The notes beneath the pieces are model-generated. The model saw only the letters and a list, made by a program, of their open reading frames with translations, did no database searches and was not told the origin of the DNA. From the NCBI GenBank assembly GCA_013153275.1, contig JAADER010000016.1, forward strand, positions 1 to 40,782: a stretch of DNA of 40,782 nucleotides. The letters are read 5' to 3'. The translations under genes were made by a program, and so were the position numbers. Source of the DNA: Thermoproteota archaeon. Its GTDB lineage: Archaea > Thermoproteota > Thermoprotei > Thermoproteales > Thermocladiaceae. This document shows positions 3,263 to 28,769 of the stretch, in pieces (position 1 is the first letter of the stretch; each line of letters begins with the position of its first letter).

Positions 3263-3980
3263 GAAAAGACTGGACGCGATAGCTAGAGCAAGACTACCAG
3301 AAGGATACGACCTAGATAGACTTAGAAATATGCAGAAGATACTGGCATCTAGGGTAGTAGAGAGAGACGTGGTCCAGGACCCAGAGAAGATATGCGGAAT
3401 AGATCTAGCATATGTGAAAGAGAAAGGGAAGGAGATAGGGATAGCATGTGCAGTAGTATGTAACAGACATGGAGAGATAATAGACAGATCATGTAGAGCA
3501 GTAAACATAGAGTTTCCATATATACCTACATTGCTCTCACTAAGAGAGCTAAGACCCATGGTGGTAGCATTCAGATCGCTCAGAGAGAGACCTGATATAG
3601 TAATGATAGATGGTCACGGTAAAGCGCACCCATACAGGCTAGGCATAGCTTCGCATTTTGGAGTAGTTATGAAGGTTCCCACAATAGGATGCGCAAAGTC
3701 GTTACTATATGGAGAGCTCAGCAACTGTAGAGAGGACCAGTGTGACATAGTTGACCCAGAGAACGGGGAGATCATAGGGAGAGCATTAAAACACTATAAC
3801 AAGTACGTATATGTAAGCGTGGGAAACCTAGTAACATTAGATACTGCATGTAGAGTAGTCAGGGAGATGCTTAGGACTAGGTCGCAGATGCCGCTACCGA
3901 TACTCTATGCTCATAATATGTGTAATGAATATAAGAGGAGGGTGATAAGAGGAACGACAGATATAGAGAGATTCTTATGA
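3249..3980 (+). CDS. nfi: Endonuclease V
   Basis: A 243-residue enzyme that cleaves DNA (or RNA) near deaminated adenine (inosine). Hallmarks visible: GIDLAY (metal-binding Asp 52), EFPYIPTLLSLRE (wedge PYIP at 90-93 and Glu 100), the DGHGKAHPYRLGIASHFG block (Asp 121) and PTIGCAKS. Start is GTG 3249, inside the 3' end of the translin gene; no ATG start fits without losing the N-terminal helix. Stop overlaps the next gene by 4 nt (ATGA). High growth temperature makes deamination repair important, in keeping with the organism type inferred. Confidence 0.95.
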   Translation: MKRSRKRLDAIARARLPEGYDLDRLRNMQKILASRVVERDVVQDPEKICGIDLAYVKEKGKEIGIACAVVCNRHGEIIDRSCRAVNIEFPYIPTLLSLRELRPMVVAFRSLRERPDIVMIDGHGKAHPYRLGIASHFGVVMKVPTIGCAKSLLYGELSNCREDQCDIVDPENGEIIGRALKHYNKYVYVSVGNLVTLDTACRVVREMLRTRSQMPLPILYAHNMCNEYKRRVIRGTTDIERFL

Positions 3981-4420
3981 ATGTAAAATACGTTATTCTA
4001 TACAAGCTCAAGAACAGGAAAAACATAGAGGACATAGTGAACATATGTAGAAGACTAAACATTGAAGTAATATACATACCAAGAGAGGACTCAGAATACG
4101 TTCCTGAGAACGTGCAGATCTCTAGAGATATATATGAGATCGTTCACGGGCTAGAAGATAACGTCAGCTTTATAGTTCTAGAGACGTATGGAGACAAGTA
4201 TCTCACAGAGATAGATCTTGGAGAGAACATATGTGTTATAGTTGGCGCAGAGGATACAGGAATCCCAGAGATAGAGATCAATAAGCTTCCTCGAGACCGC
4301 ACGCATGTCGTTAAGATACCTATGGGAGTATATGGAGCAAGCTATAACGTCGTGACAAGCCTAATAATGATGCTTACAGAATGCTTAATTAGAACATATG
4401 ATGAAGGTATCCTAGACTGA
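3977..4420 (+). CDS. SPOUT-superfamily (SpoU/TrmH-like) protein
   Basis: A 147-residue protein whose C-terminal half has the knot signature of SPOUT RNA 2'-O-methyltransferases: VIVGAEDTGIPE (residues ~87-98, motif 2) followed by VVKIPMGVYGASYNVVTS (motif 3, with Tyr where SpoU enzymes usually have Leu). It is shorter than typical TrmH proteins and lacks their N-terminal RNA-binding part. The usual motif 1 Asn/Arg is not obvious, so activity is unproven. ATG overlaps the endonuclease V stop. The stop codon lies inside the D' box of a C/D guide RNA at 4398-4445, a curious neighbour for a putative 2'-O-methyltransferase. Confidence 0.75.
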   Translation: MNVKYVILYKLKNRKNIEDIVNICRRLNIEVIYIPREDSEYVPENVQISRDIYEIVHGLEDNVSFIVLETYGDKYLTEIDLGENICVIVGAEDTGIPEIEINKLPRDRTHVVKIPMGVYGASYNVVTSLIMMLTECLIRTYDEGILD

Positions 4421-4445
4421 GAGATGCTGAAAACCCGGAAACTGA
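4398..4445 (+). ncRNA. C/D box sRNA overlapping a gene junction
   Basis: Complete C/D layout in 48 nt: C box ATGATGA (4398-4404, exact), 12-nt guide aggtatcctaga, D' box CTGA (4417-4420, exact), 3-nt spacer gag, C' box ATGCTGA (4424-4430, one mismatch), 11-nt guide aaacccggaaa, D box CTGA (4442-4445, exact). The stop codon of the SPOUT gene is within D' and the ATG called for the next gene is the first three bases of C'. A TATA-like CTAATAATG at 4361-4369 would start transcription at about 4391. Predicted targets read UCUAGGAUACCU (methyl on G5) and UUUCCGGGUUU (methyl on C5); I could not place them in rRNA from memory. Confidence 0.8.
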
Positions 4446-5326
4446 ACATAATATATGTAGAACCATTCGACATATTCTACCCTAGCGTACTATTAAGAAC
4501 AGCATACTCCGCATTAGGAAAATCCTTAACATCATTTACATTAATAACTCGAAGGAGAGTGAGGCTAGGAGACATAGCAAGATACTCTCGAGTACCTATA
4601 CCACGACTCAGAGAGATATTAAGTATACGTGAGGAACACGTAAACGTAAGTACAGGAGTACTAGTATCTACCAATAAGGACATCACGACTAGTAGCATAG
4701 GTAGGATAATGAAGTTCAAAGAGATGGAAGAGTTAACAATAGTGGTAGATGAGACAGGAGAAATGCGACAAGACGGATTAGAGGTTTTCAGGACAGGATT
4801 CTTTGACCATCCTGCATATGAGGCAGTAGCACTCTTATACATACTCTATATTAGAGATCTTGCCTTAGTTAAGAAATTTAAAGAGCATAAAAGTATACCA
4901 GACATAGATTATGGTGAACTCATATATTTCATGAGAAATATAGCTAGCTCAATATCGATAATGAATAATTACCCAATTATAGACCCGAGATCAGTAGTAT
5001 ACACTCTACGTCACGTCTTTAGAAATCATAACATGTTGCTCGATCTTGCAAAAGCTGAGATAGGTATAGACTATTCTGATAATAGAGTTATAGAGAAGGT
5101 GATAGTTGACATATATAGGTATAGGGACCTCAGATATATTAGGACGGAGACTATTCTATTCGACGGTGAGCGTCTAGATACTATATTTGTGACGCGTAGT
5201 GGAGCATTAACGAGGGTCTCTCTCTATGTTGATTCTGATAGAAGAGAGGTATGTGTAGACGCTAATGTATGTGTGTCTTCTAGGAGGGAGGACATGTCGG
5301 AGGAGCTATTATCGTTCCTGTTCTGA
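4424..5326 (+). CDS. Conserved-looking protein of unknown function (300 aa)
   Basis: A 300-residue protein I do not recognise. It begins with a hydrophobic strand IIYVEPFDIFYPSVLLRTA, contains no Cys cluster or known nucleotide-binding loop, and the middle is helical with many Ile/Tyr/Arg residues. The C-terminal part holds a pair of short strands with VCVDANVCV. The ATG at 4424 coincides with the C' box of a guide RNA, so the start may be an accident of that element; the next in-frame Met is far downstream (about residue 91), so a non-ATG start remains possible. Three nt separate it from the SPOUT gene, giving an operon of at least four genes. Confidence 0.65.
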   Translation: MLKTRKLNIIYVEPFDIFYPSVLLRTAYSALGKSLTSFTLITRRRVRLGDIARYSRVPIPRLREILSIREEHVNVSTGVLVSTNKDITTSSIGRIMKFKEMEELTIVVDETGEMRQDGLEVFRTGFFDHPAYEAVALLYILYIRDLALVKKFKEHKSIPDIDYGELIYFMRNIASSISIMNNYPIIDPRSVVYTLRHVFRNHNMLLDLAKAEIGIDYSDNRVIEKVIVDIYRYRDLRYIRTETILFDGERLDTIFVTRSGALTRVSLYVDSDRREVCVDANVCVSSRREDMSEELLSFLF

Positions 5327-17914: not shown

Positions 17915-18790
17915 ATGTCTCTCCCTGATATAACGATAGACCACATAAGAGATTTCATAGTAGAGAACGCATTTCGTATAGAGGACCTACTCAAGAGCGA
18001 GAAGCAGCTCGTAGAGATAAATAGCGATAAGATAGTAGTGGTAGGAGATCTTCACGGTGACTATCTATCTCTATGTAACATAGTATCGAGATATAGTCCT
18101 TCTGAGTGGACGATCCTCTTCCTAGGAGACTATGTGGATCGTGGCGAGTACCAGATAGAGACTATCACGAAAGTGCTAGAACTTAAAGTAAAGCATCCTG
18201 ATAAAGTGTTTCTCTTGAGAGGTAATCATGAGTCACCGTCTATGAATATCACGTATGGTTTTGTTGCAGAGCTTCAGACAAAGTTCAAAGGCGAGATACA
18301 GCTGATGTCACTTATATATAGCTTCCTCGAGTACAAGGTATTCTGCAACCTACCCTATGCTGCATTAATCAACAATGAGATATTTGCAGTACATGGAGGT
18401 CTCGCAAAAGGACTAGAAAAGCCAGATGATGTGAAAAATATTCCGAAATGTGATGCAATGCCAAGTAATCCCATAGCCTTTCAATTACTATGGAATGACC
18501 CTTCAGATGAGGTAACAGGTTTTGAACCAAATGAGCTGAGAGGAGGCTGCCTTCAGGACGACCTCTGTATATATCTGTGGGGGCCGGACGTGACCAAGAG
18601 TTTCCTTGAAAAGAACTCGTTAAAAATGATAATTAGGGCTCATGAATATACTGGACCCGGATACAAGTGGAACCATAATGGTAAGGTGCTTACAGTATTC
18701 AGCTCCTGTGCGGGACCGTACAAATTTGTGAGACCAAAGATAGCTATAATAACCCGAGGAGAGGTAAAACTAGAAGACGCTAGAAAATGA
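17915..18790 (+). CDS. PPP-family serine/threonine protein phosphatase (PP1/PP2A-like)
   Basis: A 291-residue phosphoprotein phosphatase with all PPP signatures in order: GDLHGDY (44-50), GDYVDRG (71-77), LRGNHES (101-107), FAVHGGL and IRAHEY. The Asp, His and Asn residues bind two catalytic metals, and Arg residues of GDYVDRG and RGNHE bind phosphate. Archaeal members dephosphorylate proteins, much like eukaryotic PP1/PP2A. TATA-like TATATAATAAAT is ~26 nt upstream of a transcript start near 17911. The stop codon TGA (18788-18790) is inside the C box of a guide RNA. Confidence 0.95.
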   Translation: MSLPDITIDHIRDFIVENAFRIEDLLKSEKQLVEINSDKIVVVGDLHGDYLSLCNIVSRYSPSEWTILFLGDYVDRGEYQIETITKVLELKVKHPDKVFLLRGNHESPSMNITYGFVAELQTKFKGEIQLMSLIYSFLEYKVFCNLPYAALINNEIFAVHGGLAKGLEKPDDVKNIPKCDAMPSNPIAFQLLWNDPSDEVTGFEPNELRGGCLQDDLCIYLWGPDVTKSFLEKNSLKMIIRAHEYTGPGYKWNHNGKVLTVFSSCAGPYKFVRPKIAIITRGEVKLEDARK

Positions 18791-18835
18791 TGAGAACTCC
18801 TGATACAGACCTGTGACGATGCCGTCCCAGTCTGA
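18787..18835 (+). ncRNA. C/D box sRNA overlapping a gene junction; guide fits the 23S P-loop
   Basis: Layout in 49 nt: C box ATGATGA (18787-18793, exact), 12-nt guide gaactcctgata, D' box CAGA (18806-18809, one mismatch), 3-nt spacer cct, C' box GTGACGA (18813-18819, one mismatch), 12-nt guide tgccgtcccagt, D box CTGA (18832-18835, exact). The second guide pairs with ACUGGGGCGGUA of archaeal 23S helix 80 (10 Watson-Crick pairs and 2 G-U), placing the methyl on G2251 (E. coli numbering) by the N+5 rule; this rRNA sequence is recalled, not checked. The phosphatase stop lies in C and the next gene's GTG is the start of C'. TATA-like CTATAATAA at 18744-18752. Confidence 0.82.
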
Positions 18836-19211
18836 ACGAAAGATAATCTGCAGAGAAGATATGAGATATATCTGTATGAAAATGCTCGAACCAAGGAAAT
18901 GGAAGCAGGCCATACTATCATTAATCTTTCTAATGTTCTACGCTATACTAATGCTGAGCCTAGGCCTCCTTCTTAACGCTGTAAACGTACCTCTGACTAG
19001 TGTTTTTGTTGGCCTGATTATGATCATCGTGCCGCTAATGATAGCAATGATTATATGCTCAGTTATTCATACGTTCTTTGCTATATCTGATGCACGTAAA
19101 TTTAAGAACACGTTGGTCTGCTCAAGATGTCTGAGGGTGTGGATATACATATCCTGTAATGCATCTCCTAGATACTGCCCGGCCTGTGGTGGCCCTCTCA
19201 ATAGACCCTAG
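18813..19211 (+). CDS. Two-helix membrane protein with C-terminal zinc ribbon
   Basis: A 132-residue protein: a cytoplasmic N-terminus, two membrane helices (~residues 34-56 and 63-90), and a C-terminal zinc ribbon CSRCLRVW...YCPACGGPL (two CxxC pairs, ~103-128). Function unknown; zinc ribbons on small membrane proteins are common in archaea. The GTG 18813 start is doubtful because those bases are the C' box of a guide RNA; ATG 18819 or ATG 18861 are alternatives. The next gene downstream also joins a zinc ribbon to a membrane helix, so the two may work at the same site. Confidence 0.7.
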   Translation: MTMPSQSERKIICREDMRYICMKMLEPRKWKQAILSLIFLMFYAILMLSLGLLLNAVNVPLTSVFVGLIMIIVPLMIAMIICSVIHTFFAISDARKFKNTLVCSRCLRVWIYISCNASPRYCPACGGPLNRP

Positions 19212-27695: not shown

Positions 27696-27744
27696 GTGAT
27701 GAGCGCACCCTTAAATGAGAGATGATTAGACCGCCAGCGTCTGA
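27696..27744 (+). ncRNA. C/D box sRNA, intergenic
   Basis: Complete layout in 49 nt: C box GTGATGA (27696-27702, exact), 12-nt guide gcgcacccttaa, D' box ATGA (27715-27718, one mismatch), 3-nt spacer gag, C' box ATGATTA (27722-27728, one mismatch), 12-nt guide gaccgccagcgt, D box CTGA (27741-27744, exact). A TATA box lies at the right distance upstream. The guides predict 2'-O-methylation within UUAAGGGUGCGC (G5) and ACGCUGGCGGUC (U5). I could not place these targets from memory; they may be in rRNA or tRNA. Confidence 0.82.
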
Positions 27745-27797: not shown

Positions 27798-28769
27798 ATG
27801 ACTACTCACTGCATAATTGTTGATAACGTTCGAAAAACATATATTGTAAGAGAAGGCATAAGAAAGAAGAGAAGCGTTGAAGCACTGAGAGGAGTTAGCT
27901 TTAATGTTAGATGTGGAACAGTTCACGCGCTCCTAGGCCCTAACGGTGCTGGAAAGACCACACTTGTGAAGATAATGTCAACGATACTCCTCCCCGATGA
28001 TGGTCGCGTACAAGTTCTAGGGCTGGACGTTGTGAGAGAACCTGACAAGGTCAGGAAAGTCGTAGGCGTAGTTTTAGATATATCTAAGGGATTCTACTTC
28101 ACATTATCAGGATATGAGAATCTAGTATTCTACGGTCTTCTTAAGGGACTAAGCAAGAGAGATGCTGAGAGACGTGCAAGAGAGGTTCTCGAGCTAGTTG
28201 GTCTAGACGAGTCCTCCTACAAGAGACCGTACCACACGTACAGTCTAGGCATGCGTGCGAGAGTTGCCATAGCTAAGGCTCTCGTGACGGATCCTGAAGT
28301 GCTCATTCTTGATGAGCCTACTCTAGGGTTAGACGTTGAGAGCGCTAGAGCTGTGAGGGACCTTCTGGTCAAGCTCGCTAGAAGTGGGAAGACGATACTT
28401 GTGACAGGCCATAACATGCATGAGATAGAGATGATATCAAACCACGTCACTATAATACATAAAGGAAAGGTTGTAGCAGACGGACACCCAGAGGAGCTAA
28501 AGCTCAAGCTTGGACTTCCAATAAAGATAGTGCTCAGACTGAGAGAGATCCCCAGAGACATAGAAGAGAAGATCAGATCTGAAATACCTATAGTAAACAT
28601 GTGCAGAGAAGAAGATAAACTCATAATATATGCTAGAGGCAGAAGAGAGAACATAGTTCAATCGCTTCTAGAGATCCTTAGACATAACAATCTACCCATA
28701 ATCGATGTTCAGATAGTTGAGCCTACGCTAGAGGATGCATATATAGCTGCTCTCAGAGGTGTTGAATAA
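27798..28769 (+). CDS. ABC transporter ATP-binding protein (ABC-2 type)
   Basis: A 323-residue ATPase: Walker A GPNGAGKTT, Q-loop region replaced by GVVLDISKG, signature YSLGMRARVAIAKAL (variant of LSGGQ), Walker B VLILDEPTLGLD, H-loop TGHNMHE, and a C-terminal extension of about 80 residues common in drug or antibiotic exporters. It powers the two membrane subunits that follow without gaps (ATG overlaps by one base). Substrate unknown; export is likely from the ABC-2 architecture. Coding start ATG 27798 with a short leader after a TATA-like box at 27755-27762. Confidence 0.95.
   Translation: MTTHCIIVDNVRKTYIVREGIRKKRSVEALRGVSFNVRCGTVHALLGPNGAGKTTLVKIMSTILLPDDGRVQVLGLDVVREPDKVRKVVGVVLDISKGFYFTLSGYENLVFYGLLKGLSKRDAERRAREVLELVGLDESSYKRPYHTYSLGMRARVAIAKALVTDPEVLILDEPTLGLDVESARAVRDLLVKLARSGKTILVTGHNMHEIEMISNHVTIIHKGKVVADGHPEELKLKLGLPIKIVLRLREIPRDIEEKIRSEIPIVNMCREEDKLIIYARGRRENIVQSLLEILRHNNLPIIDVQIVEPTLEDAYIAALRGVE

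Follow-up and report, generated by a model that had tools for sequence, protein, structure and literature searches.

A 48-nt element at positions 4398-4445 of the window (the whole stretch of 40,782 nt that was analysed) has the box architecture of an archaeal C/D box sRNA, is not expected there by chance, and is conserved in three congeners while both of the reading frames that meet in it slide. With high confidence, it is best explained as a genuine archaeal C/D box sRNA gene lying astride the junction of two co-directional genes. The element and its flanking genes were assigned as follows.

3977..4420, + strand: SPOUT methyltransferase ORF, 147 aa, matching SpoU_methylase (PF00588); its stop codon, TGA at 4418-4420, lies in the D' box.
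4398..4445, + strand: predicted C/D box sRNA core, C to D box, 48 nt, from sequence reading, pattern scan and conservation.
4398..4404, + strand: C box, ATGATGA, perfect and the same in 4/4 genomes.
4405..4416, + strand: D' guide, AGGTATCCTAGA, 12 nt; the GGTATCCTA part is invariant and the best complement is a tRNA D-arm.
4417..4420, + strand: D' box, CTGA, perfect in the window; CCGA or CGGA in relatives.
4421..4423, + strand: spacer between D' and C', GAG, 3 nt, from sequence reading.
4424..4430, + strand: C' box, ATGCTGA, with one mismatch (A to C at position 4).
4424..5326, + strand: downstream ORF, 300 aa, whose ATG at 4424 opens the C' box.
4431..4441, + strand: D guide, AAACCCGGAAA, 11 nt; AACCCGG is invariant and its complement, CCGGGUU, is found in the tRNA T-arm.
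4442..4445, + strand: D box, CTGA, perfect and the same in 4/4 genomes.

Perfect C, D' and D boxes at a spacing of 12-3-11 (C, 12 nt, D', 3 nt, C', 11 nt, D) were read exactly as a previous sequence-only reading had described them, and three relatives back the identification. The marks of archaeal C/D box sRNAs were present at 4398-4445 (C, RUGAUGA; D, CUGA; C' and D' about 3 nt apart), and the guide lengths of 12 and 11 nt, equal in 4/4 genomes, agree with the norm of about 10-12 nt for this class. A clear terminal stem was not seen at the element.

Chance occurrence was assessed with a strict pattern (perfect C, D' and D boxes and at most one mismatch in C'), which had a single match in the 40,782-nt window, namely 4398-4445. 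No match was obtained in 60 simulated windows or on one strand of 20 Mb of random order-2 Markov sequence, so that the chance expectation is well under 0.02 per window. A search of the window against Rfam returned a tRNA as its only match. A sequence model scored 52.7-62.3 bits at the element loci and at most 23.8 bits elsewhere; it was built from the four elements themselves, whose high scores are partly by construction. Strong matches to this model were absent outside the genus. Besides the three congeners, the pattern scan matched an Acidimicrobiales contig (L040), which lacked the box structure and was judged a chance match.

The genome carrying the window (G000) is a MAG of 1.39 Mb in 71 contigs, 88.6% complete. 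The element was located at the same place, with the SPOUT gene, in three congeners (G001, G002 and G004), and the four elements aligned without gaps, with 34 of 48 bases invariant. Invariant bases included the C box, the D box and both guide cores in all four genomes; D', C' and the three D-proximal bases of the D guide varied, with C' reading ATGGCGA, ATGGAGA or GTGAAGA in the relatives. Absence of the boxes from related genomes had been named beforehand as the outcome that would speak against the sRNA; they were kept in 3/3 congeners, the internal ones in degenerate form. In comparison with locus L005, identity was 0.73 over the element, 0.63 upstream and 0.51 downstream; against the close relative L003 the values were 0.88, 0.74 and 0.75, a smaller contrast than for L005. 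In the order-mate G026 the SPOUT and downstream genes were adjacent but divergent, and the sRNA was absent. The downstream protein, for which no match was found in Pfam or NCBIfam, was retained at 35-53% identity within the genus and at 25% in G026.

The reading frames were then compared across the same bases, and this comparison is the strongest line of evidence. In the window, the SPOUT and downstream ORFs share one frame and are separated by one codon. Counted in the SPOUT frame, the C box starts at codon phase 1 in the window but at phase 0 in each of the three relatives; relative to L003 and L004, the shift is due to one extra base just upstream of the C box. The SPOUT protein accordingly ends in ...TYDEGILD in the window and in ...KMMKVS or ...KMMRVS in the relatives; between the window, L003 and L004, 19 bases are identical where these C-termini differ. 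The SPOUT stop is TGA in the D' box in the window, and TAG (KMMKVS) or TAA (KMMRVS) in the D' guide in the relatives. In the window, L003 and L004 the downstream gene has its ATG within C', and both L003 and L004 carry another ATG in the D guide; for L005 the first plausible downstream start is outside the element, 7 nt past the D box, and in another frame. Because the SPOUT frame shifted over unchanged guide DNA and the downstream frame shifted in L005, the RNA is what stays conserved. On this comparison of sequences, the conserved layer is the RNA and neither protein frame.

The same comparison bears on whether the conserved bases are instead coding sequence, or a signal in the mRNA that couples translation of the next gene to that of SPOUT, with only accidental likeness to a C/D sRNA. 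The stretch does fall exactly at the stop/start junction of a gene pair that is kept in the genus. The SPOUT frame nevertheless differs between the window and its relatives over identical DNA, the downstream frame differs in L005, and a chance match to the strict pattern is not expected; this explanation is largely refuted and very improbable. Also considered was a mainly cis-acting element, in which L7Ae, by binding a k-turn or k-loop of the mRNA, would repress the downstream gene, which has its start in C'. Repression of translation by L7Ae on mRNA k-turns is possible in Sulfolobus (PMC5539422), and 3/4 genomes have the downstream ATG inside C'. However, conservation is among the strongest in the guide cores, which cis-regulation would not need, and is weakest in C'/D', and the L005 start codon is outside the element, leaving cis action as the main role quite unlikely.

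For the preferred reading, a C/D sRNA gene across the junction, the sharing of bases was examined in turn. The stop TGA at 4418-4420 in D' and the start ATG at 4424 in C' were read directly, so that the earlier statement that guide RNA, stop and start are encoded by the same bases is correct for the window; across the genus the arrangement is fluid, and the L005 start lies outside the element. As judged from the four sequences, the exact match between codons and boxes belongs to the window's genome and not to the family. Four close relatives thus form a small natural experiment in which the guide RNA is fixed and the stop, the start and both frames slide, showing which of the overlapping layers of information is protected by selection when two genes share bases with a guide RNA. 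The value of the case lies in this frame-sliding comparison, for which the layout here is unusually clear. The sliding agrees with published work proposing an easy exchange between UGA stop codons and k-turn boxes.

Overlap of stop and start codons by C/D sRNAs is a documented archaeal arrangement: an upstream ORF's stop lies inside the sRNA in about 25% of cases and a downstream start overlaps it in about 7% (PMC7994747). Since such base sharing is documented, and is fluid across this genus, the novelty implied by the sequence-only reading was overstated; a stop and a start in one element are a natural combination of the known 3' and 5' overlaps. The ORF-overlapping archaeal C/D sRNAs (Tripp et al. 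2017, Lui et al. 2018, reviewed in PMC7994747) have the same boxes and guide lengths, the same stop inside the element and the same apparent want of an own promoter. The present element differs in holding the stop and start of two genes, where the review lists 3' and 5' overlaps separately, and in that its targets are predicted.

The upstream protein had been described as SPOUT methyltransferase-like, and ORF 3977-4420 does match PF00588. C/D sRNAs guide fibrillarin, not SPOUT enzymes. Given this, and with position alone tying the SPOUT gene to the sRNA, the neighbourhood is probably incidental; a functional link between SPOUT and the guide was weighed and dropped for want of evidence.

Expression of the sRNA had been left between processing from the mRNA and an internal promoter, and the evidence favours processing. 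The TATA-like sequence at 4361-4369, CTAATAATG, is poor and lies within coding sequence (S-L-I-M-M), and L005 has AGTCTAGTCATGG at this position, so the motif is not kept although the sRNA is. A TATA-like motif is present at about 20% of archaeal C/D sRNA genes and few have their own promoters; these sRNAs are processed from longer transcripts, and the internal boxes, not the flanks, are enough for maturation (PMC7994747). On these grounds, excision of the predicted sRNA from a SPOUT/downstream cotranscript is the better reading. A promoter inside the SPOUT gene, driving the sRNA with no cutting of the mRNA, would have its TATA-like site at a suitable distance (the expected 5' end lies about 28 nt further downstream) and would place the element with the one fifth of archaeal C/D sRNA genes that have such a motif, but the poor, coding and unconserved site makes it unlikely.

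Under processing, the sRNA would be transcribed together with its flanking genes, bound by L7Ae (at the C/D k-turn and C'/D' k-loop), Nop5 and fibrillarin, and trimmed by nucleases to about 50 nt, after which it would guide 2'-O-methylation. Because processing would remove both the SPOUT stop and the start of the downstream gene, a given transcript would yield the sRNA or the pair of proteins, but not both. Less certainly, the targets would be tRNAs, with the D' guide acting on the D-arm and the D guide on the T-arm. That both guides act on the same tRNAs, and that excision, by removing the SPOUT stop and next start, makes modification and protein expression mutually exclusive and perhaps co-regulated, is an unlikely extension of this scheme. 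A Nop5 gene was found in the same genome at G000:C31:13811-14494 (L142, L143). Fibrillarin was not found beside Nop5 or elsewhere in the 88.6% complete MAG, which may reflect missing sequence or a diverged gene.

Targets were sought among the genome's tRNAs and among rRNAs. Sites were predicted by the rule that the base opposite guide position +5 receives the 2'-O-methylation; tRNA positions are given in our own numbering (G22, C50). For the D' guide the best complement was UAGGAUG(CC), the D-arm sequence of Gly(CCC), Val(UAC), Val(GAC), Pro(GGG) and Pro(CGG); the core of the D guide complements CCGGGUU, which almost all tRNAs carry in the T-arm. When positions were shuffled jointly in the guides of the three relatives and scored against tRNA and rRNA, the observed tRNA score was reached by a fraction of 0.020 (D') and 0.030 (D) of shuffles, which is modestly significant, and the observed rRNA score by 0.16-0.85, which is chance level for rRNA of relatives from other genera. 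The tRNA pairing is imperfect (a G-U pair at +9 of D'; pairing of D at +4 to +10 or +11 only), and for this reason methylation at about G22 of Gly, Pro and Val tRNAs by D' and at C50 of most tRNAs by D is predicted at roughly even chance. Nine nucleotides of the D' guide (AGGTATCCT) also occur in the sense strand of initiator tRNA-Met, a match judged coincidental.

Searches of the own genome and of congeners turned up neither SSU nor LSU rRNA; in 12 SSU and 12 LSU rRNAs from related genera, neither guide had a consistent good site. The search for targets proposed earlier thus gave no convincing rRNA site in relatives, and tRNA matches that both guides fit better than shuffles. That the sRNA is aimed at rRNA sites, or has one orphan guide, with the tRNA matches arising by chance, is a serious possibility, somewhat short of an even one. 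Ribosomal RNA is the commonest class of target (56% of Pyrobaculum guides, against 16% for tRNA; PMC7994747), the tRNA shuffle test is modestly significant only and the rRNA tested came from other genera; the scan that lacked a good site for either guide did, however, find a double rRNA site for another candidate, at 18787.

If tRNAs are the targets, two known systems are comparable. In Sulfolobus acidocaldarius, one guide of Sac-sR10 has been proposed for tRNA Gly-CCC, Pro-CGG and Pro-GGG (PMC5539422), all of which, together with Val, rank with the best matches of the present D' guide; unlike in Sac-sR10, the second guide also matches tRNA, and the likeness is one of target set, with no homology claimed. 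The Cm56 guide of Pyrobaculum aerophilum is a C/D sRNA acting on the tRNA T-arm (Renalier et al. 2005, as cited in PMC6313347), which the D guide also faces. In the T-arm register the partner of the D guide's +5 G is C50 and not C56, which means that the element is not the Cm56 guide.

Further C/D sRNA candidates were noted. A second sRNA probably spans a stop/start junction at 18787-18835 (+), where the C box ATGATGA contains the stop (18788-18790) of ORF 17915-18790 and the C' box GTGACGA contains the GTG (18813) that starts ORF 18813-19211. In 23S rRNA the guides of this second sRNA fit two sites, GCTGGGGCGGC and TATCAGGGGTG (L027), which lie 26 nt from each other; the first would be P-loop G2251 (E. 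coli numbering). A third candidate, at 27696-27744 (+), is intergenic (GTGATGA-12-ATGA-3-ATGATTA-12-CTGA) and lies upstream of an ABC transporter ATPase ORF (27798-28769). The better weak hits of the sequence model were likewise C/D sRNA candidates, in the genus (L132, L133, L134, L135, L136, L137 and L141) and in the order-mate G026 (L139 and L140). At L139 the stop of a ferredoxin-like ORF lies inside the C box, and at L136 a stop lies just ahead of it.
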